From the NCBI GenBank assembly GCA_002711105.1, contig PAIH01000023.1, forward strand, positions 86,529 through 126,740: a stretch of DNA of 40,212 nt, written 5' to 3'. Of the stretch, positions 25,209 through 37,993 are shown in pieces. Each line of letters opens with the position of its first letter. Position 1 is the stretch's first letter. This stretch comes from Planctomycetota bacterium. GTDB taxonomy: Bacteria > Planctomycetota > UBA8108 > UBA1146. A model generated the notes under the pieces. It was not told the DNA's origin and did not search any database. It saw only the letters and a list, made by a program, of their open reading frames with translations. The position numbers were made by a program, and so were the translations under genes.

Positions 25209-28109
25209 TTAGCCGGTCTGACGAGCCAGCAGTGTAGCAAAAGTACCGCCGGCATTCGCGAGCTCGCCATACGTACCCTGTTCAATGACACGGCCCTGGT
25301 CGAGCACATAGATACAATCAGAATCCCGTATTGAGCTCAATCTATGGGCGATCACGATACGAGTTACCTGTCGACGATTGAGGCTATCGTTGACGATTTT
25401 CTGCGAGCGGTTGTCGAGAGCGCTCGTGGCTTCATCAAGGAAGATGATTTTAGGTTTACGAATCAGGGCCCGACAGATGAGAAGTCGTTGACGCTGGCCC
25501 CCGGATAAGTTGGTTCCACCTTCGCTGACCACGGTGTGCATCTGCATCGGCATCGATCGGATATCGTCGGCGATGCCTCCCTCTTCCGCTGCTTCCCAGG
25601 CTTCTTCAAGACTGTAGACCGATCCCACGGTGATGTTTTCGTAGATGGAACCGGCTCCGATATGGCCAGATTGCAGCACCACCCCCAACTGGCGTCGGAC
25701 TGCAGTCGTATCGATGGAATTAACGTCTTGCCCATCAAATCGAACTTCCCCGCTCTCGGGAGTTTCAAATCCGAGCATCAATCGGAGCAAGGTCGATTTA
25801 CCGCAGCCAGAAGTGCCGGTCAGGGCTATGCACTGGCCGGGCTTGGCGTGGATGGAAACATCTTCGAGGATCTTGGGTCCTTCTGGCGAGTATCGGAAAT
25901 GAATCCTGGAGAGTTCGATATCCCCTTTGAGTTGGCCAGGGTCGACACTTGCCGAAACAGTTTCCAGCTCGGCAGAAAGCAGAGGTTGCATCCGATTAGC
26001 CAGGACCGTGGTGTCTAGAAATCCCACGATGGTCGAACTCAAGGTCAGAGCTCCACCCAGGAATATTCCCAGAGCAGCATTGAACGCAAGGAAGATACCA
26101 ATCGATAGGCTGGTACCCGCTGGTCCCTGCCCGATTACCATTGGGATCGCGAGCATGAACAGAATCAGCGTGCTCAACATCGGAATGGCTTGGTTGAAAA
26201 GGTTGAGTACATCAACGGTCCGCTGGACCTTGTTGGATAGATTTAACTGACGAGCCACCCGCTCCATCCACAGTGCAAATGCCCTTCGCTCGGCTCCAGC
26301 CACCCGTAATTTACTGACAGCATTGATGAGCTGAACTTCGAAACCGAAAAGCTCGCCTTCTTCTTCCATCAATTTTCGGGCGTGACGACGAATAATAGCA
26401 CCGCCGATGACTGTGACGATGGCGACAACCAGTGCTATTGCGATTGCGACCAGAGCAAGTTGAGAGTTGTAGTAAATCAGAAGGCCTACATTGAGTAAGG
26501 CCATGAATGAGGTCATCAGGGTCAGCAAGGTGGACCCGCTCAACTCCTGACTGATGGAATGTGCTGCAGAAACACGCTGTAACAAATCTCCGGTGGAGTA
26601 TTTCGAGAAAAATGAAACGCGTAATCGAAGAAGCCGATCCCAGATCGCAGCCTGTGCAGCGAAATCCGTACTTACTGAGAGTCGAATGCTTACGAAAGAC
26701 TGGAATACATTCAAGATGGTCATCCCGATGGAAACGGCAACAAGAGCAGCGCCAAGTTCTATCAGTAGCCGGGAGTTAGCATTGGGAATTGCGTTATCGA
26801 GCACAATGGCCATCGCTTGGGGAAGGAGCATTCCCATCAGAGTGAGGAAAATCGCAGCGACGAAGAAGGAGACCATATCTGGTAACTTCTTGTGAAGACA
26901 GAAAGCTACAAGGCCGTAAGGGCTCTTTTCCTTCTCGTCCAGGGATCTGATCAAAACGATAGCATCCTGATGTAGCAAGGATGCGGAGTTGGCATCAACA
27001 GGAGTACGCGAGTCGTCCTGGGGGTCATAGATCAGATAACGCCCCTTGCTTGCCTGTAGAATCGCTACCGGTCTGCCATCTTCATTCAGATATCCGACAA
27101 GAGGGCCAACATCACTTTTCCACCACTTTCCTCTGAGCATGACTCGGCGGTACTGAATGCGTGATGCTCGAGTGATCGCTTCTGCAGGATCGTTCAGTGT
27201 TTCGAGATTGGTGGAATCTGCGATCGGTAGGATCTCGATGCCTTTTTCAGAACCAACTAACTTCATCACCGAATAGAGATCGTCACCCTGACCAATAGCA
27301 GTGGATTGTGGATTCAAGACTGATGCAAGTTTGGAGAGTGCGCGTTCCGATTCCTTTTTCTCGACCAGGTCCCTCTGGTAAACGCGTTCAGAGTTCGATG
27401 AGAGTTCCTGTTTTCTGAATAGTTCTCTTTTTACCTGGATCCAGCGATTGAGCCGCTGAAGCGCTGCCAGTGAACCCTCAATAGAAACTTGTGTAGAATC
27501 GAGTGTCTCGATTTGAAGTTCTTCGGAAGCCTCAAGCCAGCTGCCAGAAGGTAGCAAGAGAAGATCGTCTTGTTCAAAAACAGATTCAGTCCCGACAAAA
27601 GTTCCCCTGCCTTGACTTAATCGGACCCATAATCCTGTATCGGAAATTGGCTCTACCTGATGGCCTGGTGACATGACGAGGTTGTCTCCAGTTTTTAACC
27701 TCTGGCATGAAGAAGGAACGGAACCAGGATCAAGCAAGGAAATGATCTTGGATGACCAGGCCTGGATAGCCGTTACAGCAGAAACCTTCATCGATTCGGC
27801 AACGTATTCGAGGTGTTCCTTCGGCAGTTCAATTACCCGGAGAGTTTCTTGAGCAAGCAACATCACAGCATGATTAATCGGGGAATCTTCGTCCTGGATG
27901 GAAAACAAGATCTCGCCAGGTTTGGTATTACTGATGAACTGGCGACGACCTGTTGCATGAGAATCCAGAACATCTGTGGAAACAACTTCGCCCTCTCCGT
28001 CGAGAACCACCCAGATCATCGTCGGATCGTTCAGCAGCAGAGAGCGATGCCCTGAGATTTCTTGAATCGTACCGTCGCGCTCTAGTAGTTGTGCTTCAGG
28101 TACCATCAC
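25209..28109 (-). CDS. NHLM-type bacteriocin/peptide export ABC transporter, ATP-binding/permease protein (no peptidase domain)
   Basis: 966 aa; long N-terminal region, ABC TM domain, GTSGCGKSTLLRLMLGFETPESGEVRFDGQDV, LSGGQRQRLLICRALIRKPKIIFLDEATSALD; in operon with C39-ABC and HlyD. Confidence 0.85.
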   Translation of the reverse strand: MMVPEAQLLERDGTIQEISGHRSLLLNDPTMIWVVLDGEGEVVSTDVLDSHATGRRQFISNTKPGEILFSIQDEDSPINHAVMLLAQETLRVIELPKEHLEYVAESMKVSAVTAIQAWSSKIISLLDPGSVPSSCQRLKTGDNLVMSPGHQVEPISDTGLWVRLSQGRGTFVGTESVFEQDDLLLLPSGSWLEASEELQIETLDSTQVSIEGSLAALQRLNRWIQVKRELFRKQELSSNSERVYQRDLVEKKESERALSKLASVLNPQSTAIGQGDDLYSVMKLVGSEKGIEILPIADSTNLETLNDPAEAITRASRIQYRRVMLRGKWWKSDVGPLVGYLNEDGRPVAILQASKGRYLIYDPQDDSRTPVDANSASLLHQDAIVLIRSLDEKEKSPYGLVAFCLHKKLPDMVSFFVAAIFLTLMGMLLPQAMAIVLDNAIPNANSRLLIELGAALVAVSIGMTILNVFQSFVSIRLSVSTDFAAQAAIWDRLLRLRVSFFSKYSTGDLLQRVSAAHSISQELSGSTLLTLMTSFMALLNVGLLIYYNSQLALVAIAIALVVAIVTVIGGAIIRRHARKLMEEEGELFGFEVQLINAVSKLRVAGAERRAFALWMERVARQLNLSNKVQRTVDVLNLFNQAIPMLSTLILFMLAIPMVIGQGPAGTSLSIGIFLAFNAALGIFLGGALTLSSTIVGFLDTTVLANRMQPLLSAELETVSASVDPGQLKGDIELSRIHFRYSPEGPKILEDVSIHAKPGQCIALTGTSGCGKSTLLRLMLGFETPESGEVRFDGQDVNSIDTTAVRRQLGVVLQSGHIGAGSIYENITVGSVYSLEEAWEAAEEGGIADDIRSMPMQMHTVVSEGGTNLSGGQRQRLLICRALIRKPKIIFLDEATSALDNRSQKIVNDSLNRRQVTRIVIAHRLSSIRDSDCIYVLDQGRVIEQGTYGELANAGGTFATLLARQTG

Positions 28110-30292
28110 GCGCTCTTCTCTTTGAACTGGTCATCTAGCTTGAGAAGTTCTGAGTAGGCACCACCTGAATGGAATAGCTCATCATGATTGCCGCGTTCAA
28201 CAACCTTGCCCTGTTCCAGCACTACAATCTCTGTGCAGTCACGAATAGTGCTCAGTCGGTGAGACACGAAGATAGAGGAGCAACCCCGCATCCTCATCCG
28301 GTCAAGAACAACTCGTTCCGTTTCTGTATCGAGAGCACTAGTGGCTTCATCGAGGATCAGGATGGTGGGATTGGTTACGAGAGTTCTCGCGATCTCTAAC
28401 CTTTGTCTTTGCCCTCCGCTCAGATTGTTGCCACCCTCGATCAGTTCGGAGTCGAATCCGCCAGGTAAAGCGGTAATGGTCTCCAGAATGGCGGCATCTT
28501 CACACGCTTGTTGCAGATCAATTTCAGGAACTGTCGAATCCCAGAGTGTGAGGTTGTCTCGGACGGTACCACTGAAAAGCAGGATTTCCTGGCTGATGAA
28601 GGAGAAGGAATTGACGAACAGGCTTCGGGGCAATTCTTCACGCGGAATGCCATCGAAGTAGATCTTGCCGCTCCAGGGAGAGAGTTCTCCTGAGATCAAT
28701 TTCGCAAGCGTTGATTTTCCTGATCCGCTGCCTCCAACCAGGGCAACCCGATCCCCCGGTTTGATATGCAGATTGAGGTTCTCCAGCAGTGGGGGATCAA
28801 GAGGGTTGTATCCGAAGGAGATATCTTCAAGTCGTACATCTCCATTGAGAAAAGTGCTGCCATTTTTGGAACTGCCGTCGGTTGGTTCTTCGACATAGTT
28901 TTCAATGGGATACTTCAATACATCATCGATACGATCAAGATCTCCGCGCATCTCCTGAGTTACCGAGCCAAGATCGAGTAAGTTCTCTATGGGGCTCAAG
29001 AAGCTGGTCATCAACGATTGGAAAGCGACCAGCATTCCTATTGTCATGAATCCATCGAGCACCCTGAATCCACCAACGATGATGACCAGAACGGTAGCAA
29101 TTGAACCGAGCAGGACAGGCATGGTATTCAGAAGAATGCTGGAAACCTGTAGCTTTTGTTGAGCATTGATCGCCTTGGAATAGTATCCAGACCATTTTTC
29201 AAAAAAGCCTGCTTCGAGTCCACTGGCCTTGATCGTTTCCATCCCCTGCAAGCCAGCCATCGCAGAACCTTCGGCTTTTCCAAACTCCTGCAGAACACGC
29301 ATTGAAGATTCAACTCGACTGCCGGAAATCCATCTCAAGACGATGAAGTTGAGCAACGCAAAACAGAGTCCGATACAGGTCAGTAGTACGTCGTAATACA
29401 GCATCACGGTCAAATACAGAGCTGCCATGACCACATCGATAACAGTTTGGGCCAGTCTACCGGACAGATCCGCCGCCAGGTCTTGATTCAGCTGGCTACG
29501 ACTGGCGACTTCACCAGCAAATCTCTGAACGTAGAACTCGTTTGGTAATTTTAATAGATGCCATAAGAACTGGCTTGAGAGTTTGATCGTCAAATTTAGC
29601 CGTAGTCTACGGAGTGAATTTAGCTGCAAGTACTTTAGCCCGATGCTCAGCAGGATGGAGGCTGCCAGGGCGATCATGATGGGCCGTGCCCAGTCGGTCC
29701 GGCCCTCCAGGATGATGTCGTCGAGGAATACTTGCAAAAGTACAGGGAACAGGATTCCCGGAATTACCATCAAGAAGCCGATTAAGATGCAGAACGCTAT
29801 TGGAAGTGAAGAGCCTTCCAATCTATCTGCTACTGCACGAAGCAGGCTTGGCTTCTTTCCGCCTTTTTTAAACTCTTCACCAGGTTTCATCGCCAGTGCT
29901 ACACCAGTGAAACTCCGCTCAAAATCAGCAAGAGGTATCACGCGATGACCCATGGCAGGATCATTGATGTAGACCTTGTCCTTCTTGAAACCTTCAAGAA
30001 CAACAAAGTGATTGAACTCCCAGAATAGAATACAAGGTAACTGCTGAGCACGGAGAGAAGAGATGCTGGCCTTCAGGCCATTGGCTTCCATCCCGTACTT
30101 GCGGGCAGCCCTGAGGACATTGGCAGCTTTACTCCCATCGCGTGAGACACCACAGTTTTGTCTCAGTTTGGCAAGGGGCTCAATTCTGCCGTAGTAACCC
30201 AATACCATCGCTAACGATGCAGCACCACATTCTACTGCTTCGAGCTGTAGAACAGTTGGAGTCTTGACACGTTTGTTGGCGCCTTTGTTCAT
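28106..30292 (-). CDS. NHLM-type peptide export ABC transporter with N-terminal C39 peptidase domain
   Basis: C39 catalytic residues: TPTVLQLEAVECGAASLAMVLGYYG (Cys), EFNHFVVLEGF (His), INDPAMGHRVI (Asp); TM domain; GGSGSGKSTLAKLISGE; LSGGQRQRLEIARTLVTNPTILILDEATSALD. ORF call opens at an upstream GTG (30310). Confidence 0.93.
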   Translation of the reverse strand: MNKGANKRVKTPTVLQLEAVECGAASLAMVLGYYGRIEPLAKLRQNCGVSRDGSKAANVLRAARKYGMEANGLKASISSLRAQQLPCILFWEFNHFVVLEGFKKDKVYINDPAMGHRVIPLADFERSFTGVALAMKPGEEFKKGGKKPSLLRAVADRLEGSSLPIAFCILIGFLMVIPGILFPVLLQVFLDDIILEGRTDWARPIMIALAASILLSIGLKYLQLNSLRRLRLNLTIKLSSQFLWHLLKLPNEFYVQRFAGEVASRSQLNQDLAADLSGRLAQTVIDVVMAALYLTVMLYYDVLLTCIGLCFALLNFIVLRWISGSRVESSMRVLQEFGKAEGSAMAGLQGMETIKASGLEAGFFEKWSGYYSKAINAQQKLQVSSILLNTMPVLLGSIATVLVIIVGGFRVLDGFMTIGMLVAFQSLMTSFLSPIENLLDLGSVTQEMRGDLDRIDDVLKYPIENYVEEPTDGSSKNGSTFLNGDVRLEDISFGYNPLDPPLLENLNLHIKPGDRVALVGGSGSGKSTLAKLISGELSPWSGKIYFDGIPREELPRSLFVNSFSFISQEILLFSGTVRDNLTLWDSTVPEIDLQQACEDAAILETITALPGGFDSELIEGGNNLSGGQRQRLEIARTLVTNPTILILDEATSALDTETERVVLDRMRMRGCSSIFVSHRLSTIRDCTEIVVLEQGKVVERGNHDELFHSGGAYSELLKLDDQFKEKSA

Positions 30293-30299
30293 GTTGGTT

Positions 30300-31742
30300 C
30301 TAGTAACCACCGAGTTCTCTTAGGAAAGGCAACAGGAAGGTGATCGGCTTTCTGTATTCGATGGTCGCATCGAGTGTGAGAGTCATTCCTGAGGTAATTT
30401 TGATGTCAGGACCGCTACCTGAAGACCAGTTGTATCCACTCGGATTTTGGTCATCGGTTGTTAGTCTACTCCGAATTTCGATCATCGATCCGGCTGTTCC
30501 GAAGCTCATGGCAAGTTCACGATTGCCAACAATCGCTGCGATTGAATCTGTTGACCTTGGAACAGAAGAAACACTAGTGATTTCACCGATGATGCTTCCG
30601 TATCGTTCTCTCTTGATCGTTGTGGGGGTGATGCGAGTTTGCATTCCGGATTTGATTTTCTTGCCGTCCTTCATGGGGAAATAGGCAACTGCAACGAGCC
30701 CGTCTGGTGAACTGTTTGACTCTATCGATCCGATTTGCTGGCCCGGGGTCAAAATTTGTCCCGTTACGACAGTGAGCTCAAGAATTTTGCCCGAATGCGG
30801 CGAAACGATTTGTGATTGATGGGCAAGATCCTGCTCAAGCCTCTGGAGACGACCTTCAGCCTCTACCAGTTCAAGTTTTGTATTTGTTTCGGAGGTAAGT
30901 TCGGCTTGATCCAGTCTGGCAACCTGGACGTCCAGCTCTTCTATTTGTTTTTGCAGTTCTTCAATGCCATCCAGGCGTTCTTGATGCTCGGACAAAAACT
31001 TGAGCCTCTGGAACTCAATTTCCTGTTGCTTCAAGCTCAGTTCCGAGAGCGCAATTTTGTTGCTCAGTAATTGCTGCCGTGTATCTGTCAATTCTTGATC
31101 GTATGCAGCAAAAATCTTCTGTTGAGTCAGCGCCTCGAAATCGGACAGTTTCTTTTCCAGGAATTTGCCTAGAGTTTTCAGATCAGATTTATGCTCCTTC
31201 AGTTGATTCGATTGATTCTCAAGATAGCGCTGACTTTCAGCCTGCCTTGCTGTAGCCAGTTCACCGTTGTCTTCGATTCGCTGCTGATACCAGTTTCGCT
31301 TGGCCTGGATGAACTGCTTTTCGGATGCCAGTGTGAATTTACGAAGCGGCTCGACTGTTGCCACCCTGATACGCAACTCTCGGAGGAGCTCCTTATCGAC
31401 ATTGAATTGTTCTGTCAGTGTCGGTTGGTAGATCTCTGCCAGTACCTGTCCTTTTTCAACGGAGTCCCCGATCTCGAAGTTGAGATGCATGAGCTGACCA
31501 TGCGAATGGCTCTGTAAAGGAACGATTCGGCCCGGATGGACCATGATGCCGTTGGAGCTCACGTTGACCGGAATCTGCCCGAAGACGCACCAGATTCCGA
31601 ACCCCAGGCAGCCAAGCCCGACCACGAGGAGAGGGATCCAGTTACGCCTGGGTAGGACCTGTAACATCGTGTCCAGTTGTTCCGGCGTCGAGATGTGATC
31701 AAGAGCCTTCTGGCGAAATAATGAAGACTGTTCGGCGGGCAC
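30300..31742 (-). CDS. HlyD-family (NHLM-type) secretion adaptor protein
   Basis: Single N-terminal TM (PLLVVGLGCLGFGIWCVFGQIPVNVSSNGIMVHPGRIVPLQSHSHGQLMHLNFEIGDSVEKGQVLAEI), long coiled coil, second lipoyl half (SPHSGKILELTVVTGQILTPGQQIGSIE). GTG start. Confidence 0.88.
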   Translation of the reverse strand: MPAEQSSLFRQKALDHISTPEQLDTMLQVLPRRNWIPLLVVGLGCLGFGIWCVFGQIPVNVSSNGIMVHPGRIVPLQSHSHGQLMHLNFEIGDSVEKGQVLAEIYQPTLTEQFNVDKELLRELRIRVATVEPLRKFTLASEKQFIQAKRNWYQQRIEDNGELATARQAESQRYLENQSNQLKEHKSDLKTLGKFLEKKLSDFEALTQQKIFAAYDQELTDTRQQLLSNKIALSELSLKQQEIEFQRLKFLSEHQERLDGIEELQKQIEELDVQVARLDQAELTSETNTKLELVEAEGRLQRLEQDLAHQSQIVSPHSGKILELTVVTGQILTPGQQIGSIESNSSPDGLVAVAYFPMKDGKKIKSGMQTRITPTTIKRERYGSIIGEITSVSSVPRSTDSIAAIVGNRELAMSFGTAGSMIEIRSRLTTDDQNPSGYNWSSGSGPDIKITSGMTLTLDATIEYRKPITFLLPFLRELGGY

Positions 31743-31778: not shown

Positions 31779-32336
31779 TTAGTTCTTGGTCGCTCTTTCG
31801 ACAAGGTATTCAAATCGGCGACTAGCCAAGGACATCGCTTCAAGAACATCCGGATCCAGCACCGTGCCGGTATCCTCTTCTTGCTCGGTATCTTTATCGA
31901 CAACCCCGAGAGTGCTGATGGTGAGAGTAGTCTGGGTCAGGTGGATCAAGCGTTGAGCTACGCATACTCCAATGGCTCGATAGAACCGACTTGCGAAGCT
32001 GAAGTCGTTCTGGAGTTTGATCTGCAGTTCCTTACGAGTGATTTCTAGCAAAGTGGTTCGTTCGGCAGCGATCAAAGTGACGGAGGGAGGTCGGGAGTCC
32101 AAAAACGAAACTTCGCCGACGATCTCTCCGGGATATGTGGTGGCCAGCTTGATACTGGTATCTTTGATCGTTGTTACGGATAGTGAGCCCTCAAGGACGA
32201 ACCAAAGCGATTCGATAGGATTTCCTTCTTCAATCAAAATGTCGCCTGTAGAAAGCACAGATTTCTGCCCTATGCGTGTAAACCACTCAATATCTTGATC
32301 TTCAAGTATCCCAAGAATGACGAGAGAATTTCGCAA
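31779..32336 (-). CDS. Cyclic nucleotide-binding (Crp-like sensor) domain protein without HTH
   Basis: LSTGDILIEEGNPIESLWFVLEGSLSVTT...YPGEIVGEVSFLDSRPPSVTLIAAERTTLLEITRKEL. Only plausible start is TTG at 32336, preceded by AGAGG. First gene of the export operon. Confidence 0.8.
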   Translation of the reverse strand: MRNSLVILGILEDQDIEWFTRIGQKSVLSTGDILIEEGNPIESLWFVLEGSLSVTTIKDTSIKLATTYPGEIVGEVSFLDSRPPSVTLIAAERTTLLEITRKELQIKLQNDFSFASRFYRAIGVCVAQRLIHLTQTTLTISTLGVVDKDTEQEEDTGTVLDPDVLEAMSLASRRFEYLVERATKN

Positions 32337-32539: not shown

Positions 32540-32743
32540 CTACTTGCCCATGCTGGGTGCTTTGCCGTCACCCTTACCGCCTTTGTAAGGTCCGGCTCCG
32601 GTACCTGGAAGGCCTGCATCACCTTTACCGGCATCGCCAATCTTGTCTTTCTTGCCGCTATCCATTTTGCCTTTGCTCGATTTTCCTGCGCCACCGGCAA
32701 TGTCTTCCATGTCTGAATCGGATACAAACTTCTCGTCGTTCAT
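32540..32743 (-). CDS. Double-glycine leader precursor peptide 1
   Basis: MNDEKFVSDSDMEDIAGGAGKSSKGKMDSGKKDKIGDAGKGDAGLPGTGAGPYKGGKGDGKAPSMGK; SD TAAGGAGG upstream; leader shared with the other three peptides. Confidence 0.82.
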   Translation of the reverse strand: MNDEKFVSDSDMEDIAGGAGKSSKGKMDSGKKDKIGDAGKGDAGLPGTGAGPYKGGKGDGKAPSMGK

Positions 32744-32858
32744 TTTTCCTCCTTAGGAAATCAAAAGTTCTCCAGAGTACAGTGACCTTTACTCAGGCCA
32801 CAATTTACAAATCGCACTAAAACATTCATCAAACTAAAACGCTAATGTCACGGTTGCT

Positions 32859-33059
32859 CTACCCGATGTGGTTCCCCTGTTGGCCTGGGAAGCCGGTGTT
32901 TCCTTGGTTGGGGTTCGGCTTGGCGCCGGTCGGCTTAGGGCTGTCAGAGCCAGTACCGGGGTTTTTACCCGCTGGCTTCTTTCCAGGGCCGGTTTTTCCG
33001 GCACCACCAGCAACATCTTCCAGGTCTGCATCGGAAAGGCGCTCAGGATTATCACTCAT
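32859..33059 (-). CDS. Double-glycine leader precursor peptide 2
   Basis: MSDNPERLSDADLEDVAGGAGKTGPGKKPAGKNPGTGSDSPKPTGAKPNPNQGNTGFPGQQGNHIG; leader LSDADLEDVAGG fits the LSxxELxxVxGG-type consensus. Confidence 0.82.
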   Translation of the reverse strand: MSDNPERLSDADLEDVAGGAGKTGPGKKPAGKNPGTGSDSPKPTGAKPNPNQGNTGFPGQQGNHIG

Positions 33060-33113
33060 CGTCGTCCCTCTCTTCTAAACTTCTAAATCAAAAATTGTCT
33101 ATAGCACCAAACG

Positions 33114-33329
33114 TCACGAATTCTTGGAGCCACCAGTAGGATCGGGCTGACTCCCCGGCAACAAATCTCGGTCCTCGTGAGCTTTCTTGGCAGGAGAGAA
33201 GCCGGTGGGCTTCTTTCCGGAACCCGGCTTGGCTGCCGGACCCTTTTTGCTCACTGACCACTTTCCGGCTCCACCGACGATATTTTCAAGACTGTTGTCG
33301 GCCAGCTCATTCGGCTTATACGAGCTCAT
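33114..33329 (-). CDS. Double-glycine leader precursor peptide 3
   Basis: MSSYKPNELADNSLENIVGGAGKWSVSKKGPAAKPGSGKKPTGFSPAKKAHEDRDLLPGSQPDPTGGSKNS; ATG 33329 has GGAGAG upstream (ORF opens at 33338). Confidence 0.8.
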   Translation of the reverse strand: MSSYKPNELADNSLENIVGGAGKWSVSKKGPAAKPGSGKKPTGFSPAKKAHEDRDLLPGSQPDPTGGSKNS

Positions 33330-33341
33330 CAGCACCACTCT

Positions 33342-33362
33342 CCAAATCTATAACTCAAATTC
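33342..33362 (-). promoter_or_regulatory. Conserved upstream block A of peptide gene 3 (possible promoter region)
   Basis: Minus strand GAATTTGAGTTATAGATTTGG, 17/21 identical to the block upstream of peptide gene 4. Confidence 0.4.
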
Positions 33363-33435
33363 GTGTCTTGACGGGTTGAGCAGGTTTCTCAGCCCAGACT
33401 TCAGCAAAGCGGAATCTGAATCCTCTCCAAACTGT

Positions 33436-33457
33436 GAAATGGCATGGCGAGCATTTC
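33436..33457 (-). promoter_or_regulatory. Conserved palindromic block B upstream of peptide gene 3
   Basis: GAAATG-N10-CATTTC (plus strand GAAATGGCATGGCGAGCATTTC), begins 107 bp upstream of the peptide 3 start codon. Confidence 0.45.
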
Positions 33458-33682
33458 ATTTAAGACACGATCAGCTTCTAAATTTGGTCAAATTTACCGA
33501 TCAGCCTGATACTAATTGACGGCTGAGGAGTTTGCCACAGTTATTCGGCAGCACCCAGTCGCGAATCCATAAGCCGATAAGTTTGAACAAATTAGACTGG
33601 TTGCCCGTATCGGTTCGATGGCACGGCCAACCCGTCGCCGGACCTTTTCAGGGCCGGATAAAAGCAAAAATAAACCAGAGAG

Positions 33683-33862
33683 CTATTTTCCCAGAGTCGG
33701 TCTACCTTTGGTTTTCTGTTCTGGAGAACCAAAATCCGGTTGGGGTTTTGAGCCAGAATCTGTTTTATCTGCATGCTTCTTCTTTTTGTCGTAATCAGAC
33801 TTCCCGGCACCGCCGGCAACGTCTTCCATATCAGCATCAGATACGCGTTCGCTATCGTTCAT
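33683..33862 (-). CDS. Double-glycine leader precursor peptide 4
   Basis: MNDSERVSDADMEDVAGGAGKSDYDKKKKHADKTDSGSKPQPDFGSPEQKTKGRPTLGK; ATG 33862 preceded by TTGGAGGAAAATT (strong SD). ORF opens further upstream at 33910. Confidence 0.82.
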   Translation of the reverse strand: MNDSERVSDADMEDVAGGAGKSDYDKKKKHADKTDSGSKPQPDFGSPEQKTKGRPTLGK

Positions 33863-34177: not shown

Positions 34178-37100
34178 TTATCCTAAGTACGTGGAGAGGC
34201 ATGTCGGAGTGGTTTTGGTCGCATGCTCTTCGACAGTCTCTTTTCTGTTGCCTGGATTGTTGTTGCTCTCTCCAGATAGGATTCGTCGTCTCTTGTTAAG
34301 TCGAAGTATCCCGAGGCGATGTAGTTTCTCTATCCAAGATTCAGAAGAATCCAATATCCGTTTCAGCTCTGGTTCCGTCAGGTAAATCCTACGGAGTTCA
34401 TCGGCGATACGGTTGGTTATTCCGTAGGTGGTGAAGAATGGATTTTCTCCAAACCTCAACTCTACTTGGTGCTCGTCGCTACCTATCGTCTCCTCGGTAT
34501 TAATTCGCAATTCCGGATGTAGAGCCAGGATCATCGAATCCGATTGGTTGCTATCCCAGTGTTGCCGTTGCTCCAACCAGTCCTGGGCTTGCTCCCAGAT
34601 CTGAGTCGTAGGGTTGTGAATTGTCCGCTGAGTGAGATCGCAACCGACCTCTTCAGGACGTTTCCATAGAAGGATGTATCCGAAGTTGACGGCTTTGAGA
34701 TCAGCACCTCGGAAGTTGTTGATCCAGCGTTCGAGCTCCCTGTTGTAGTCTTCCAGTGATTGAGAAAAAGGAGCGTGACAGTGAGGAACCGAGAACAGGA
34801 TTTCGTCACGATCAGCGGTACTGAGGATCAAACCGTAAGCGTTCACTTGCCCCAACCACGAAGACAGCTTCTGGTTATAAGTTTCGACGTTGACCAGATC
34901 GGTAACGATACAAAGACGGCCCTCAGCAGTCAGGTGTGACCAGGAACCCTCGATGATCGATCGAAGTATATTCTCTCCGGAAACCCCTCCATCTCGAAAC
35001 TTCAGTCCTTCGTCAGGACTTGGAACGAAGGGAGGGTTGGCCAGGATGCAGTCGAACTTCTGGTTGTCCACGACGTCATACAAGTTGCCTAGTTTGGCGT
35101 GGTAGTTTTCGATTCCATTCAGTTGTGCGTTGAATCGTGCGAAACGTATCGCCCTCGGGTTGATGTCCACCGCTGTCACATTGCGGGCGTATCGACTCGC
35201 AACGATTCCCTGAACACCGGAACCAGAGCAGAGATCGAGTACATGTTCACAGTGTTCTCTGGGAGCAGTTTGGACCAGGCCATGGCTATCCATTCCGATG
35301 TACATCACGGGATCTTCATCGAGATGGTCATCGGCTTGGATCATGTAGCGGTGGTCGGTAGCGAACAGCAATCCTCCACAGCAAAACAGATCAATCGCAC
35401 TGGAAAATTCATCTCCTTTACGGTTCAGCATCCCCAAGGATTCAAGAAGATTGGTATTTTGCTGGCCAAAGATCTCTTCGATACTTTGTTGCGGAACTGA
35501 TCCTCTGAGCTGGAAGAGTCTGATCAAATCCGCTCGGGGTGTTTGAGGTAAGACGTGTTTATCGAGATAGTGTAGTTTTGTCGGTTCGATTGTCTGAAGC
35601 GATTCCACAGCCAAAAGTTCGCAGATGGATTGTTCATCGTAACCATGGTCGAGAATTGTACGTCTTATGACACGTAGCTGCTGATCCAATCGGAAATCTT
35701 CGTTTTCGAATACGCCCAAGGTATTGCTGAAGGACGGAATCGGATCAAGTTGGGTTTCTTCGATGAATCTGTCGATCCATCCTCCAGCGATCGGAACTTT
35801 AAATTGTTCCAGAACTTTGATCATTTGCATGATCAGTTCATCGAATTCCACTGGGGTGCTTCTGAATTCGAGACGCAGGTTCTCACTCAAAGTTCCAGGG
35901 TCGTGTTGTAGAGCCAAAACTGTATGGACCTGATTCATGTCGAGCGGTAGATCAGCAAGTTTGCCAGTTTCATCAATCAGTAGCGATTGTGTGTGGGGGT
36001 CGACGATCAAGGTTGCGTTTTCGCTCAACTGGGTTTTGAGAGGAACCAGGAAGGGTGTTTGAGGAAAGAGTTTGCTGGTTTCCTTGAATCGAGCTCCCTG
36101 CGAGGAGAGTGCTGTCACTTCGGTTTCACTCCAGCTCTGGCTCTGGGCACCACGGAAGATCGCTTCGTCCAGTTCTTCCATCAGCGCCAGAACACTGGGT
36201 TGATTTGGTTCCAAACCGTGTGGGAGAGGTTCTTTCGGCAGGTCGAGGATGTGGTCGGAGTAATCTTTGACGGGTTGGTGGCTTCTTTTGATCCATCGAT
36301 CTTCGAGGGCAAGATAATCGATATCTGTACGGAGGAAGGTTTCGATGGCTTGTTCCGGAGTTTCAACGATCGGTTGTCCCGCCACATTGAAGCTAGTGTT
36401 CAGCAGCACCGGAACGCCCCCTCGTATCCGTTCAGCCTCAAGGCACAGATCATGGAAGAAAGGATTTTGATCGGAGGTGCAGGTTTGCACGCGACCAGTA
36501 CCGTCCTGATGCGTGATGGCAGGTAGTTTTTCTCGATACTCTTGGCGCACCGGAGCTACCAGAAGCATGTAGGGGGAAGGGATACTGAGATCAAAAACCT
36601 CGTTAGCTCGTTCAAGGGGCACGAACGGTGCGAAGGGGCGAAATGCCTCACGGAATTTGACCCGTGCGTTAACCACATCCTTCATTCGTTCGAAAGCTGG
36701 ATCGGCCAGGATCGACCGGTGGCCCAGAGCTCGAGGTCCGTACTCTGATCCTGACTCAAAACGAGCGACGATGTTGCCTCTGGTCAGCGCTTTCGCTACC
36801 TGATGGGTTAGATCCTCTGGTTCATGTTGCTGAACATCAATTCGATCAGAAAAAGCATCGATCGCCGCATCGACTTCGTTTTTCGAGTAACTGCGGCCAA
36901 AGCAAACCGATCCCAGGGCCGGTCGCTCCCTTCCACCTTCCTGAGTGTGATACGCCCACAGTGCGCAACCGGCAGCGATGCCGTTGTCGGCGGCTGCGGG
37001 AAAGGTGAAGACATTCTCCAGCCCGCAATTTTGCAAGATCTTGTAGTTGGCCACTGAGTTGAGTCCGACTCCGCCCGCGATGCACAGCTTGTTTAATCGG

Positions 37101-37993
37101 GTTTTCTGACATGCTTCGGAAACCAGATCACTGAGGATTTGTTCCAACTCGGCTTGCACCTTGTAGGCGAGGTCGACGAGCCATGGACGGAAATATGGTT
37201 TTCCTTGACCATCATCGTAACGTTTCTCAAGTGCAGCCATCTCGAGAAAGATGTCGTAAGCGGACATCTTGATTTCGAATGAACTCTTTTCGCTCGCCAT
37301 CCAATTTTGCCAGTTGTCCTGGGGGCCACCATAGGCGGCAAGCCCCATTAGCTTTCCAGATTCGGGAAAACTCAAACCGGATTTGAGATTGGTAACAAAG
37401 CCCGCGCGTCGCGAAACGGTCTCGTAAACAAATCCAATCGTTGAGAGAGCTGCAAGATGAGATTTTACCCGTTCGGAATGAATTTCCTTCAGTTCCGTTC
37501 CACGACCTTCGTAGAGTGTGTAGGACTCAGTTCGTCTTCCTTCTCGGTTTTCCGTGATACTGCCGCTGGCATCGACGACCAGGACCAGAGCTTCATCAAA
37601 TCCAGAAGGCCAGAAGGCGGAGTAAGCATGAGCCAGGTGGTGACTGGGTATCGTCCGGAGACGATCAGCCAGTTCAGCTGAGAATTTTCCGCGCATGATC
37701 TGTGGTGCCAGATCTTCGCCAGGCATGTTGGCTGTGATGGTTGCCATGGCGCTGAGGGGAATGCCGAAATGGTCGAGGCAATAGGCGATGCTCTCGCCGG
37801 GAACCTGGACCAATTCCATGTCATGAGGAGCTTGCAGCATGAAACCGACGCTGTGTTTGATACGGTCGAGTCTCTCTTGCTCGATGGCGATGATGATCTT
37901 GCCGTTTTCGACCACGGCTACAGACCGGTCATGGCCCATATTGATCCCCATATGAAATTGCCCCAAATGACCTCCTTTAGCCGATGGTTTCAT
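34178..37993 (-). CDS. NodU/CmcH-family carbamoyltransferase fused to a class I SAM-dependent methyltransferase (NPPF motif)
   Basis: N-terminus: MGINMGHDRSVAVVENGKIIIAIEQERLDRIKHS, HHLAHAYSAFWPSGFDEALVLVVDASGS, LCIAGGVGLNSVANYKIL, FESGSEYGPRALGHRSILADP, FREAFRPFAPFVP, LLNTSFNVAGQPIVETPEQAI. C-terminus: VLDLCSGSGVQGIVASRYARNVTAVDINPRAIRFARFNAQLNG...FDCILANPPFVPSP. Confidence 0.9.
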   Translation of the reverse strand: MKPSAKGGHLGQFHMGINMGHDRSVAVVENGKIIIAIEQERLDRIKHSVGFMLQAPHDMELVQVPGESIAYCLDHFGIPLSAMATITANMPGEDLAPQIMRGKFSAELADRLRTIPSHHLAHAYSAFWPSGFDEALVLVVDASGSITENREGRRTESYTLYEGRGTELKEIHSERVKSHLAALSTIGFVYETVSRRAGFVTNLKSGLSFPESGKLMGLAAYGGPQDNWQNWMASEKSSFEIKMSAYDIFLEMAALEKRYDDGQGKPYFRPWLVDLAYKVQAELEQILSDLVSEACQKTRLNKLCIAGGVGLNSVANYKILQNCGLENVFTFPAAADNGIAAGCALWAYHTQEGGRERPALGSVCFGRSYSKNEVDAAIDAFSDRIDVQQHEPEDLTHQVAKALTRGNIVARFESGSEYGPRALGHRSILADPAFERMKDVVNARVKFREAFRPFAPFVPLERANEVFDLSIPSPYMLLVAPVRQEYREKLPAITHQDGTGRVQTCTSDQNPFFHDLCLEAERIRGGVPVLLNTSFNVAGQPIVETPEQAIETFLRTDIDYLALEDRWIKRSHQPVKDYSDHILDLPKEPLPHGLEPNQPSVLALMEELDEAIFRGAQSQSWSETEVTALSSQGARFKETSKLFPQTPFLVPLKTQLSENATLIVDPHTQSLLIDETGKLADLPLDMNQVHTVLALQHDPGTLSENLRLEFRSTPVEFDELIMQMIKVLEQFKVPIAGGWIDRFIEETQLDPIPSFSNTLGVFENEDFRLDQQLRVIRRTILDHGYDEQSICELLAVESLQTIEPTKLHYLDKHVLPQTPRADLIRLFQLRGSVPQQSIEEIFGQQNTNLLESLGMLNRKGDEFSSAIDLFCCGGLLFATDHRYMIQADDHLDEDPVMYIGMDSHGLVQTAPREHCEHVLDLCSGSGVQGIVASRYARNVTAVDINPRAIRFARFNAQLNGIENYHAKLGNLYDVVDNQKFDCILANPPFVPSPDEGLKFRDGGVSGENILRSIIEGSWSHLTAEGRLCIVTDLVNVETYNQKLSSWLGQVNAYGLILSTADRDEILFSVPHCHAPFSQSLEDYNRELERWINNFRGADLKAVNFGYILLWKRPEEVGCDLTQRTIHNPTTQIWEQAQDWLEQRQHWDSNQSDSMILALHPELRINTEETIGSDEHQVELRFGENPFFTTYGITNRIADELRRIYLTEPELKRILDSSESWIEKLHRLGILRLNKRRRILSGESNNNPGNRKETVEEHATKTTPTCLSTYLG

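Follow-up and report, generated by a model that had tools for sequence, protein, structure and literature searches.

What does a bacterial peptide exporter carry when the small genes beside it match no known family? The question is raised by a stretch of 40,212 nucleotides from a Planctomycetota bacterium (assembly GCA_002711105.1, contig PAIH01000023.1, positions 86,529 to 126,740; hereafter the window), in which four small open reading frames (ORFs) stand in tandem beside the genes of an NHLM-type export system. An initial annotation, made from the letters of the window, had described them as precursor peptides with a fixed leader and a diversifying cargo. Our analysis points to a likely tag-and-cargo secretion system, in which dispersed precursors bearing a double-glycine (GG) leader are served by a single NHLM exporter.

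Four tandem ORFs share a predicted export leader

The four ORFs are present where the initial annotation had placed them, all on the minus strand, each with an ATG start and an upstream purine-rich stretch resembling a ribosome-binding site (RBS). Peptide 1 (33683..33862) has 59 amino acids, with the leader MNDSERVSDADMEDVAGG and a 41-residue core, AGKSDYDKKKK...KGRPTLGK; it was identified by its ORF and RBS-like context, by a match to a leader hidden Markov model (HMM; E = 5.8e-7) and by relatives of its core that are encoded beside the exporter in other genera and end in K(x)KGR-x-L-x-GK or similar. Peptide 2 (33114..33329; 71 amino acids) has the leader MSSYKPNELADNSLENIVGG and a core of 51 residues (HMM E = 8.9e-5), peptide 3 (32859..33059; 66 amino acids) the leader MSDNPERLSDADLEDVAGG and a core of 47 (E = 6.6e-8), and peptide 4 (32540..32743; 67 amino acids) the leader MNDEKFVSDSDMEDIAGG and a core of 49 (E = 4.7e-7). 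At the DNA level the four resemble one another almost solely in the leader, and the similarity breaks off at the AGK codons. The earlier statement that the peptides then diverge completely is slightly overdrawn, in that the core of peptide 1 has recognizable relatives. Pfam and NCBIfam offer no convincing family for any of the four, and none of the bacteriocin models in these collections is significant for them. A plasmid search with peptide 1 as query gave no match, and terminator and promoter scans returned signals no commoner than chance.

Double-glycine export leaders classically carry hydrophobic residues at positions -12, -7 and -4 and end in GG. The four peptides share a block with hydrophobic residues at the same positions and GG at its end, V/L-S-D-x-[DS]-[ML]-E-[DN]-[VI]-[AV]-G-G, in which the serine is replaced by alanine in peptide 2 (L-A-D-N-S-L-E-N-I-V-G-G); the first motif position, previously given as S or N, thus reads S in three of the ORFs and A in one. 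In the alignment, all four conform to the double-glycine consensus L/V-S-x-x-[DE]-[LM]-x-x-[VI]-x-G-G: they agree with it at -12, -7, -4, -2 and -1, at -11 with S or A, and at -8 with D, or S in peptide 2. By textbook standards the block is a double-glycine export leader, with cleavage predicted after GG. The initial annotation had extended it through AGK. Because relatives across the genome keep the block up to GG and only rarely AGK, we set the end of the leader at GG, and AGK opens the cargo of the window's four peptides. Neither the NHLP leader model (TIGR03793, at E up to 1) nor the Nif11-type leader model (TIGR03798) matches any of the four; among 38 members of the precursor family, the former gave one weak match (0.0017) and the latter four (best 8.2e-5).

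The precursors adjoin a complete NHLM-type exporter

Downstream of the precursors and on the same strand follow, in order, genes for a protein with a cyclic-nucleotide-binding domain, an HlyD membrane-fusion protein, an ATP-binding cassette (ABC) exporter with a C39 peptidase domain, and a second ABC exporter. The NHLM-type HlyD protein (30300..31742) matches TIGR03794 with 309 bits (cut-off 156); exporter 1, which combines C39 peptidase, permease and ATPase (28106..30310), matches TIGR03796 with 1035 bits (cut-off 853); and exporter 2, a permease and ATPase without the peptidase (25209..28109), matches TIGR03797 with 853 bits (cut-off 709). Three adjacent genes with matches above the curated cut-offs identify an NHLM export system and, together with the adjacent precursors and the co-occurrence described below, uphold the export route proposed in the initial annotation. 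The C39 domain of exporter 1 matches PF03412 (1.3e-35), and Q22, C28, H101 and D117 are all conserved across 86 aligned homologues; judged by these residues, the peptidase is intact. The alignment of exporter 1 with PCAT1 (4ry2), a transporter that contains a peptidase, spans nearly the whole protein, and the named relatives of exporter 1 at no less than 77% identity are nearly all metagenome-assembled genomes (MAGs) of Planctomycetota, including Planctomycetia bacterium TMED53.

The cyclic-nucleotide-binding-domain protein (31779..32336, minus strand; 185 amino acids) resembles the C-terminal half of TIGR03896, below the model cut-off, and its gene is kept between the precursor and HlyD genes in relatives across the bacterial family. 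Through this protein, a nucleotide signal might act on export. No other domain was recognized in this protein.

Precursors are dispersed and co-occur with the exporter

The window genome is itself a MAG, in fragmented contigs and with 8.8% contamination, which limits the counts given here. When the leader was searched for as a degenerate DNA pattern, 14 sites on eight of its contigs matched and none matched the pattern reversed; an HMM built from 34 sequences gave 21 matches, two of them weak and partial; on both grounds the leader motif exceeds chance. Since contigs C45/C48 and C35/C50 are duplicates at 99.5-99.7%, the raw matches cannot each be a separate gene, and they reduce to seven loci with about 16 distinct precursors in total. 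The window contains four of these; the tandem array first described is therefore real but understates the scale, as it makes up a single locus of a family dispersed over the genome. One TIGR03796-type exporter was found in the genome at the threshold used.

The leader HMM recovered the same precursor family, with E values down to 1e-9 per genome. Strong matches are confined to one bacterial family: in a phylum sample of 297 genomes, all seven with leader matches at E up to 1e-4 belong to it. Among 17 genomes of this family, precursors (E up to 0.01) were found in 10 of the 11 that carry the exporter and in one of the six that lack it. The initial annotation had named the absence of comparable small ORFs beside other NHLM-type exporters as grounds for rejecting its reading. 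This refutation failed: a precursor is adjacent in all six of the family's exporter clusters whose contig extends upstream of the cyclic-nucleotide-binding gene, in addition to the window.

Related neighbourhoods in four genomes (L203 in G000 contig C37, L190 in G003 C25, L191 in G009 C9 and L193 in G013 C156), marked by a gene containing ...DVLRGFALLGILVMN, hold precursors whose cores mostly differ from genome to genome, as if this site were a hot spot for precursors. Outside the family, a planctomycete in which an NHLM exporter is present encodes, at L075:322 on the minus strand, a leader ending in DDDLESVVGG that is followed by a run of arginines and Gly/Asp repeats.

Leaders are constrained and cores change

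Among close orthologues encoded beside the exporter, the proportion of non-synonymous differences (pN) in the leader is 0 and that of synonymous differences (pS) 0.16, whereas in the core pN is 0.12 and pS 0.10; the ratio of non-synonymous to synonymous substitution rates (dN/dS) of the exporter is about 0.1 among close orthologues. Leaders are under purifying selection, and the exporter-adjacent orthologous cores are at a pN/pS of about 1. Because the counts are small and core pN/pS (about 1 or below) is not clearly above 1, we read these values as a contrast in constraint and not as proof of positive selection on the cores. The initial annotation's picture of a fixed leader with a diversifying cargo stands except for any implication of positive selection. 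Shortness and low complexity would suit spurious ORFs, or small proteins that are not exported, but the 14 pattern matches against none for the reversed control, the conservation of the leader across genera with constraint at the protein level, and the co-occurrence with the exporter make such an explanation very improbable.

A sharper discontinuity is seen in one dispersed subfamily, in which the 5' region and leader are 86-93% identical and the 3' flank 77-92% identical, whereas between GG and the stop codon the copies, which come from different loci and different species, are unrelated in sequence and unequal in length. We compared cores in 23 pairs matched by their flanks (at least 80% identical on the 5' side and at least 75% on the 3' side), using codon-shuffled controls. 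Cores were significantly related in 14 pairs, one of them only partly (z 5.6), whereas nine pairs had no significant core similarity, of which seven are clear-cut (p 0.32-0.96) and two borderline (p 0.063 and 0.066). Normal alignments are obtained for cores that are true orthologues. We also considered whether the conserved 3' flank is a free mobile repeat, which is ruled out because nearly all of its occurrences are beside precursors.

The simplest reading of this discontinuity suggests replacement of whole cores between fixed flanks. A cargo-exchange platform, in which recombination would install new cores precisely between the GG codons of the leader and the fixed 3' flank, is conceivable, although we advance it tentatively; if it exists, loci throughout the genome would supply one exporter with a rapidly renewed set of unmodified peptides to secrete. 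Gene conversion might instead keep the leader and 3' flank alike in old paralogues while their cores diverge without limit. The tandem or dispersed paralogues have very similar flanks, which favours homologous recombination, but core relatedness in the flank-matched pairs is largely all-or-none (save for the single partial case), core lengths differ, and copies in different genomes share flanks and not cores. We regard gene conversion as the main rival, possible but doubtful.

Cores are hydrophilic, basic and probably disordered

The cores of the four window peptides (41-51 residues) have a net charge of +5 to +6, an isoelectric point of 9.8-10.3 and a grand average of hydropathy (GRAVY) of -1.1 to -1.9; they contain no Cys, and Gly, Lys, Pro and Ser make up 56-67% of their residues, much as the initial annotation had described them. 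The same tendencies extend to the 59 distinct cores of the precursor family (median 35 amino acids), of which 47 are net positive, 50 are without Cys and 55 have a GRAVY below -0.5 (median -1.24). On a charge-hydropathy plot 51 of the 59 fall on the disordered side of the line, and an AlphaFold prediction for peptide 1 with ten relatives gave a mean predicted local distance difference test score (pLDDT) of 58.6, a predicted template modelling score (pTM) of 0.15 and one helix, of four residues, in the leader; because the alignment is so shallow, the AlphaFold result lends weak support. The cores are probably disordered according to these predictions. Binding of polyanions by the cores, suggested in the initial annotation, is a conjecture that draws on their composition and weakly predicted disorder.

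Two kinds of activity can be weighed against these properties. One is that the released cores build or condition an extracellular matrix or the cell surface, a role that EbfG1-4 have in Synechococcus elongatus. The layout matches, with four tandem precursors bearing a GG motif, a C39 exporter and mature parts without homologues elsewhere (PMC4997328). Hydrophilic, basic and predicted disordered cores would also fit, as would the fact that inspection of the surroundings of the precursors brought no immunity gene to notice, although no systematic search for such genes was made. Near-complete turnover of cores among close relatives would be unusual for a structural role, however, and a sequence relation to EbfG is not demonstrated, so that we consider a matrix role no better than a possibility.

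The other is antagonism, with the cores acting as unmodified bacteriocin- or microcin-type peptides that diversify under competition. Such peptides would be expected to resemble what is found here in several ways: the cores are lineage-specific, expanded and fast-changing on a conserved double-glycine leader, the leader is weakly similar to bacteriocin models, and the exporter type is named for bacteriocins. But the cores lack a hydrophobic or amphipathic membrane-active segment, are mostly without Cys and strongly hydrophilic as noted above, are not accompanied by any immunity-like gene that was noticed (in the same unsystematic inspection), and do not have a pN/pS clearly above 1. An antagonistic function therefore appears rather unlikely.

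Candidate modifying enzymes

We searched the same 17 genomes for enzymes and domains of ribosomally synthesized and post-translationally modified peptide (RiPP) pathways. LanC-like and YcaO proteins occur in none of the 17 (radical SAM families were outside this search), and PqqD or a RiPP recognition element (RRE) occurs in one, which has no exporter, and in none of the exporter-bearing genomes. On this basis the peptides are probably exported without RiPP-type modification.

Directly upstream of the four precursors is a gene (34178..37993, minus strand; 1271 amino acids) whose product fuses a NodU-like carbamoyltransferase to an MTS/PrmC-like methyltransferase. In addition, a class I methyltransferase of about 285 amino acids recurs beside precursors of the SKSNTS type in several genomes of two genera (L256:2089-2971, L246:7111-7966, L248:2853-3702 and L249:4555-5410). 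Either enzyme might modify the cores before export and so make the peptides RiPP precursors: the fusion shares a strand with the array it adjoins, and the methyltransferase keeps company with one precursor type. However, the fusion is full-length only in the window's own genome among the 17, which excludes it as an obligatory maturase and places it outside the conserved system, and the neighbourhood of the SKSNTS-type precursor and the methyltransferase is syntenic anyway, so that the latter is possibly a dedicated modifying enzyme and possibly a case of ordinary synteny. With LanC and YcaO absent throughout, PqqD absent from the exporter genomes and the cores poor in Cys, we think a RiPP pathway improbable.

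Proposed mechanism

Together, these observations suggest the following course of events for the tag-and-cargo secretion system. Each precursor, once translated, would be addressed by its double-glycine leader to the single NHLM exporter, whose C39 peptidase domain would cut on the C-terminal side of GG in the course of export, while HlyD and the second ABC subunit would make up the rest of the conduit; precursors encoded far off in the genome would use the same exporter. A hydrophilic, mostly basic and probably disordered core would then be released outside the cell without RiPP-type modification. Precursor genes may multiply by duplication, with the exporter holding the leaders fixed while the cores drift fast, and in one dispersed subfamily whole cores may be replaced between a conserved 5' untranslated region plus leader and a conserved 3' flank. 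The released peptides would most likely form an extracellular repertoire directed at the surface, the matrix or competitors; their activity is a guess.

Several points count against this proposal. The co-occurrence of precursor and exporter (Fisher p = 0.005 over the 17 genomes) is uncorrected for shared ancestry. Two genomes depart from it: in G012, whose contig breaks off at the exporter, no strong precursor match accompanies the exporter, and G005 carries a single precursor but lacks the exporter. Gaps in the assemblies could account for both exceptions. The window's four precursors do not follow the pattern of a conserved 3' flank, so that the evidence for replacement comes from the dispersed subfamily, where gene conversion of the flanks could mimic it. 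Finally, because the class I methyltransferase adjoins one precursor type, modification of a subset of the precursors is possible.

Relation to known systems

By its exporter, the system is nearest to the NHLM systems, in which TIGR03794, TIGR03796 and TIGR03797 proteins accompany NHLP or Nif11-type precursors (Haft, Basu and Mitchell 2010; PMC2887384). Both have the same three-protein exporter and multiple precursors per exporter. In contrast, the leaders here are short (about 18-34 amino acids) and derive from neither nitrile hydratase nor Nif11, there is no YcaO or LanC-type enzyme, and the cores are poor in Cys that could be heterocyclized. The authors of that work, too, argued that the exporter and not the modifying enzymes conserves the leader (PMC2887384). 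In the present case leader/core modularity is seen although the genomes yielded no shared core-modifying enzyme, so that the exporter by itself can account for the conserved leader.

By genome organization, the nearest systems are the prochlorosins and synechococsins, which have Nif11 leaders and the synthetases ProcM and SyncM, and for which a role of recombination has been suggested (PMC10783134). They likewise comprise many scattered precursors in a marine genome, a leader conserved up to GG, non-conserved cores and one shared machine. That machine is a lanthipeptide synthetase, and its substrates are cores that contain Cys; here, by contrast, the exporter is the only component seen to be shared, and 3' flanks are conserved around unrelated cores.

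The closest functional precedent by layout is EbfG1-4 and PteB of S. elongatus, in which four tandem small proteins with a GG motif are exported by a C39 transporter and are jointly required for biofilm (PMC4997328). The mature parts there also have no homologues, and no dispersed expansion is reported for EbfG in the part of that account used here; a relation between the mature parts of the two systems is not demonstrated. The present system sets lineage-specific, dispersed and apparently unmodified precursors, with apparent modular core exchange, on a known double-glycine/NHLM export type. The system provides a testable case in which new secreted peptides apparently arise by a swap of cargo behind a ready-made export tag. 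If this is confirmed, the tag would be a search handle for hidden small secretomes of planctomycetes and possibly a tool for exporting chosen peptides. Conotoxin gene superfamilies similarly join a conserved export and pro region to a hypervariable mature peptide; this is an analogy only, as those are disulfide-rich animal venom genes with an unrelated export route.

Recurrent core types

Several core types recur across the precursor family: the exporter-adjacent AGK...GK type, cores ending in HN[ST]TRSN or containing YN[ST]SKSNTS, cores of the ATAIEYGLIA type and cores with EVCDGxDNDCDG. Immediately after GG, the ATAIEYGLIA-type cores (L026, L173, L176, L185 and L047) resemble the start of mature Flp pilin (PF04964). 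Since none of the 17 genomes holds a Flp pilin above the cut-off, we take this as resemblance only; capture of the cores from the host's own Flp pilin was rejected, as the only matches in the four genomes with such cores are the cores themselves. A MopE-like metal-binding motif in two cores scored 26.7 against a Pfam cut-off of 27 bits and is likewise left as a resemblance. One precursor (L187, G013 contig C77) contains within its core a second complete leader motif (KKLSDEELKDVAGG), which is followed by AGASGHNTTRSNRST.
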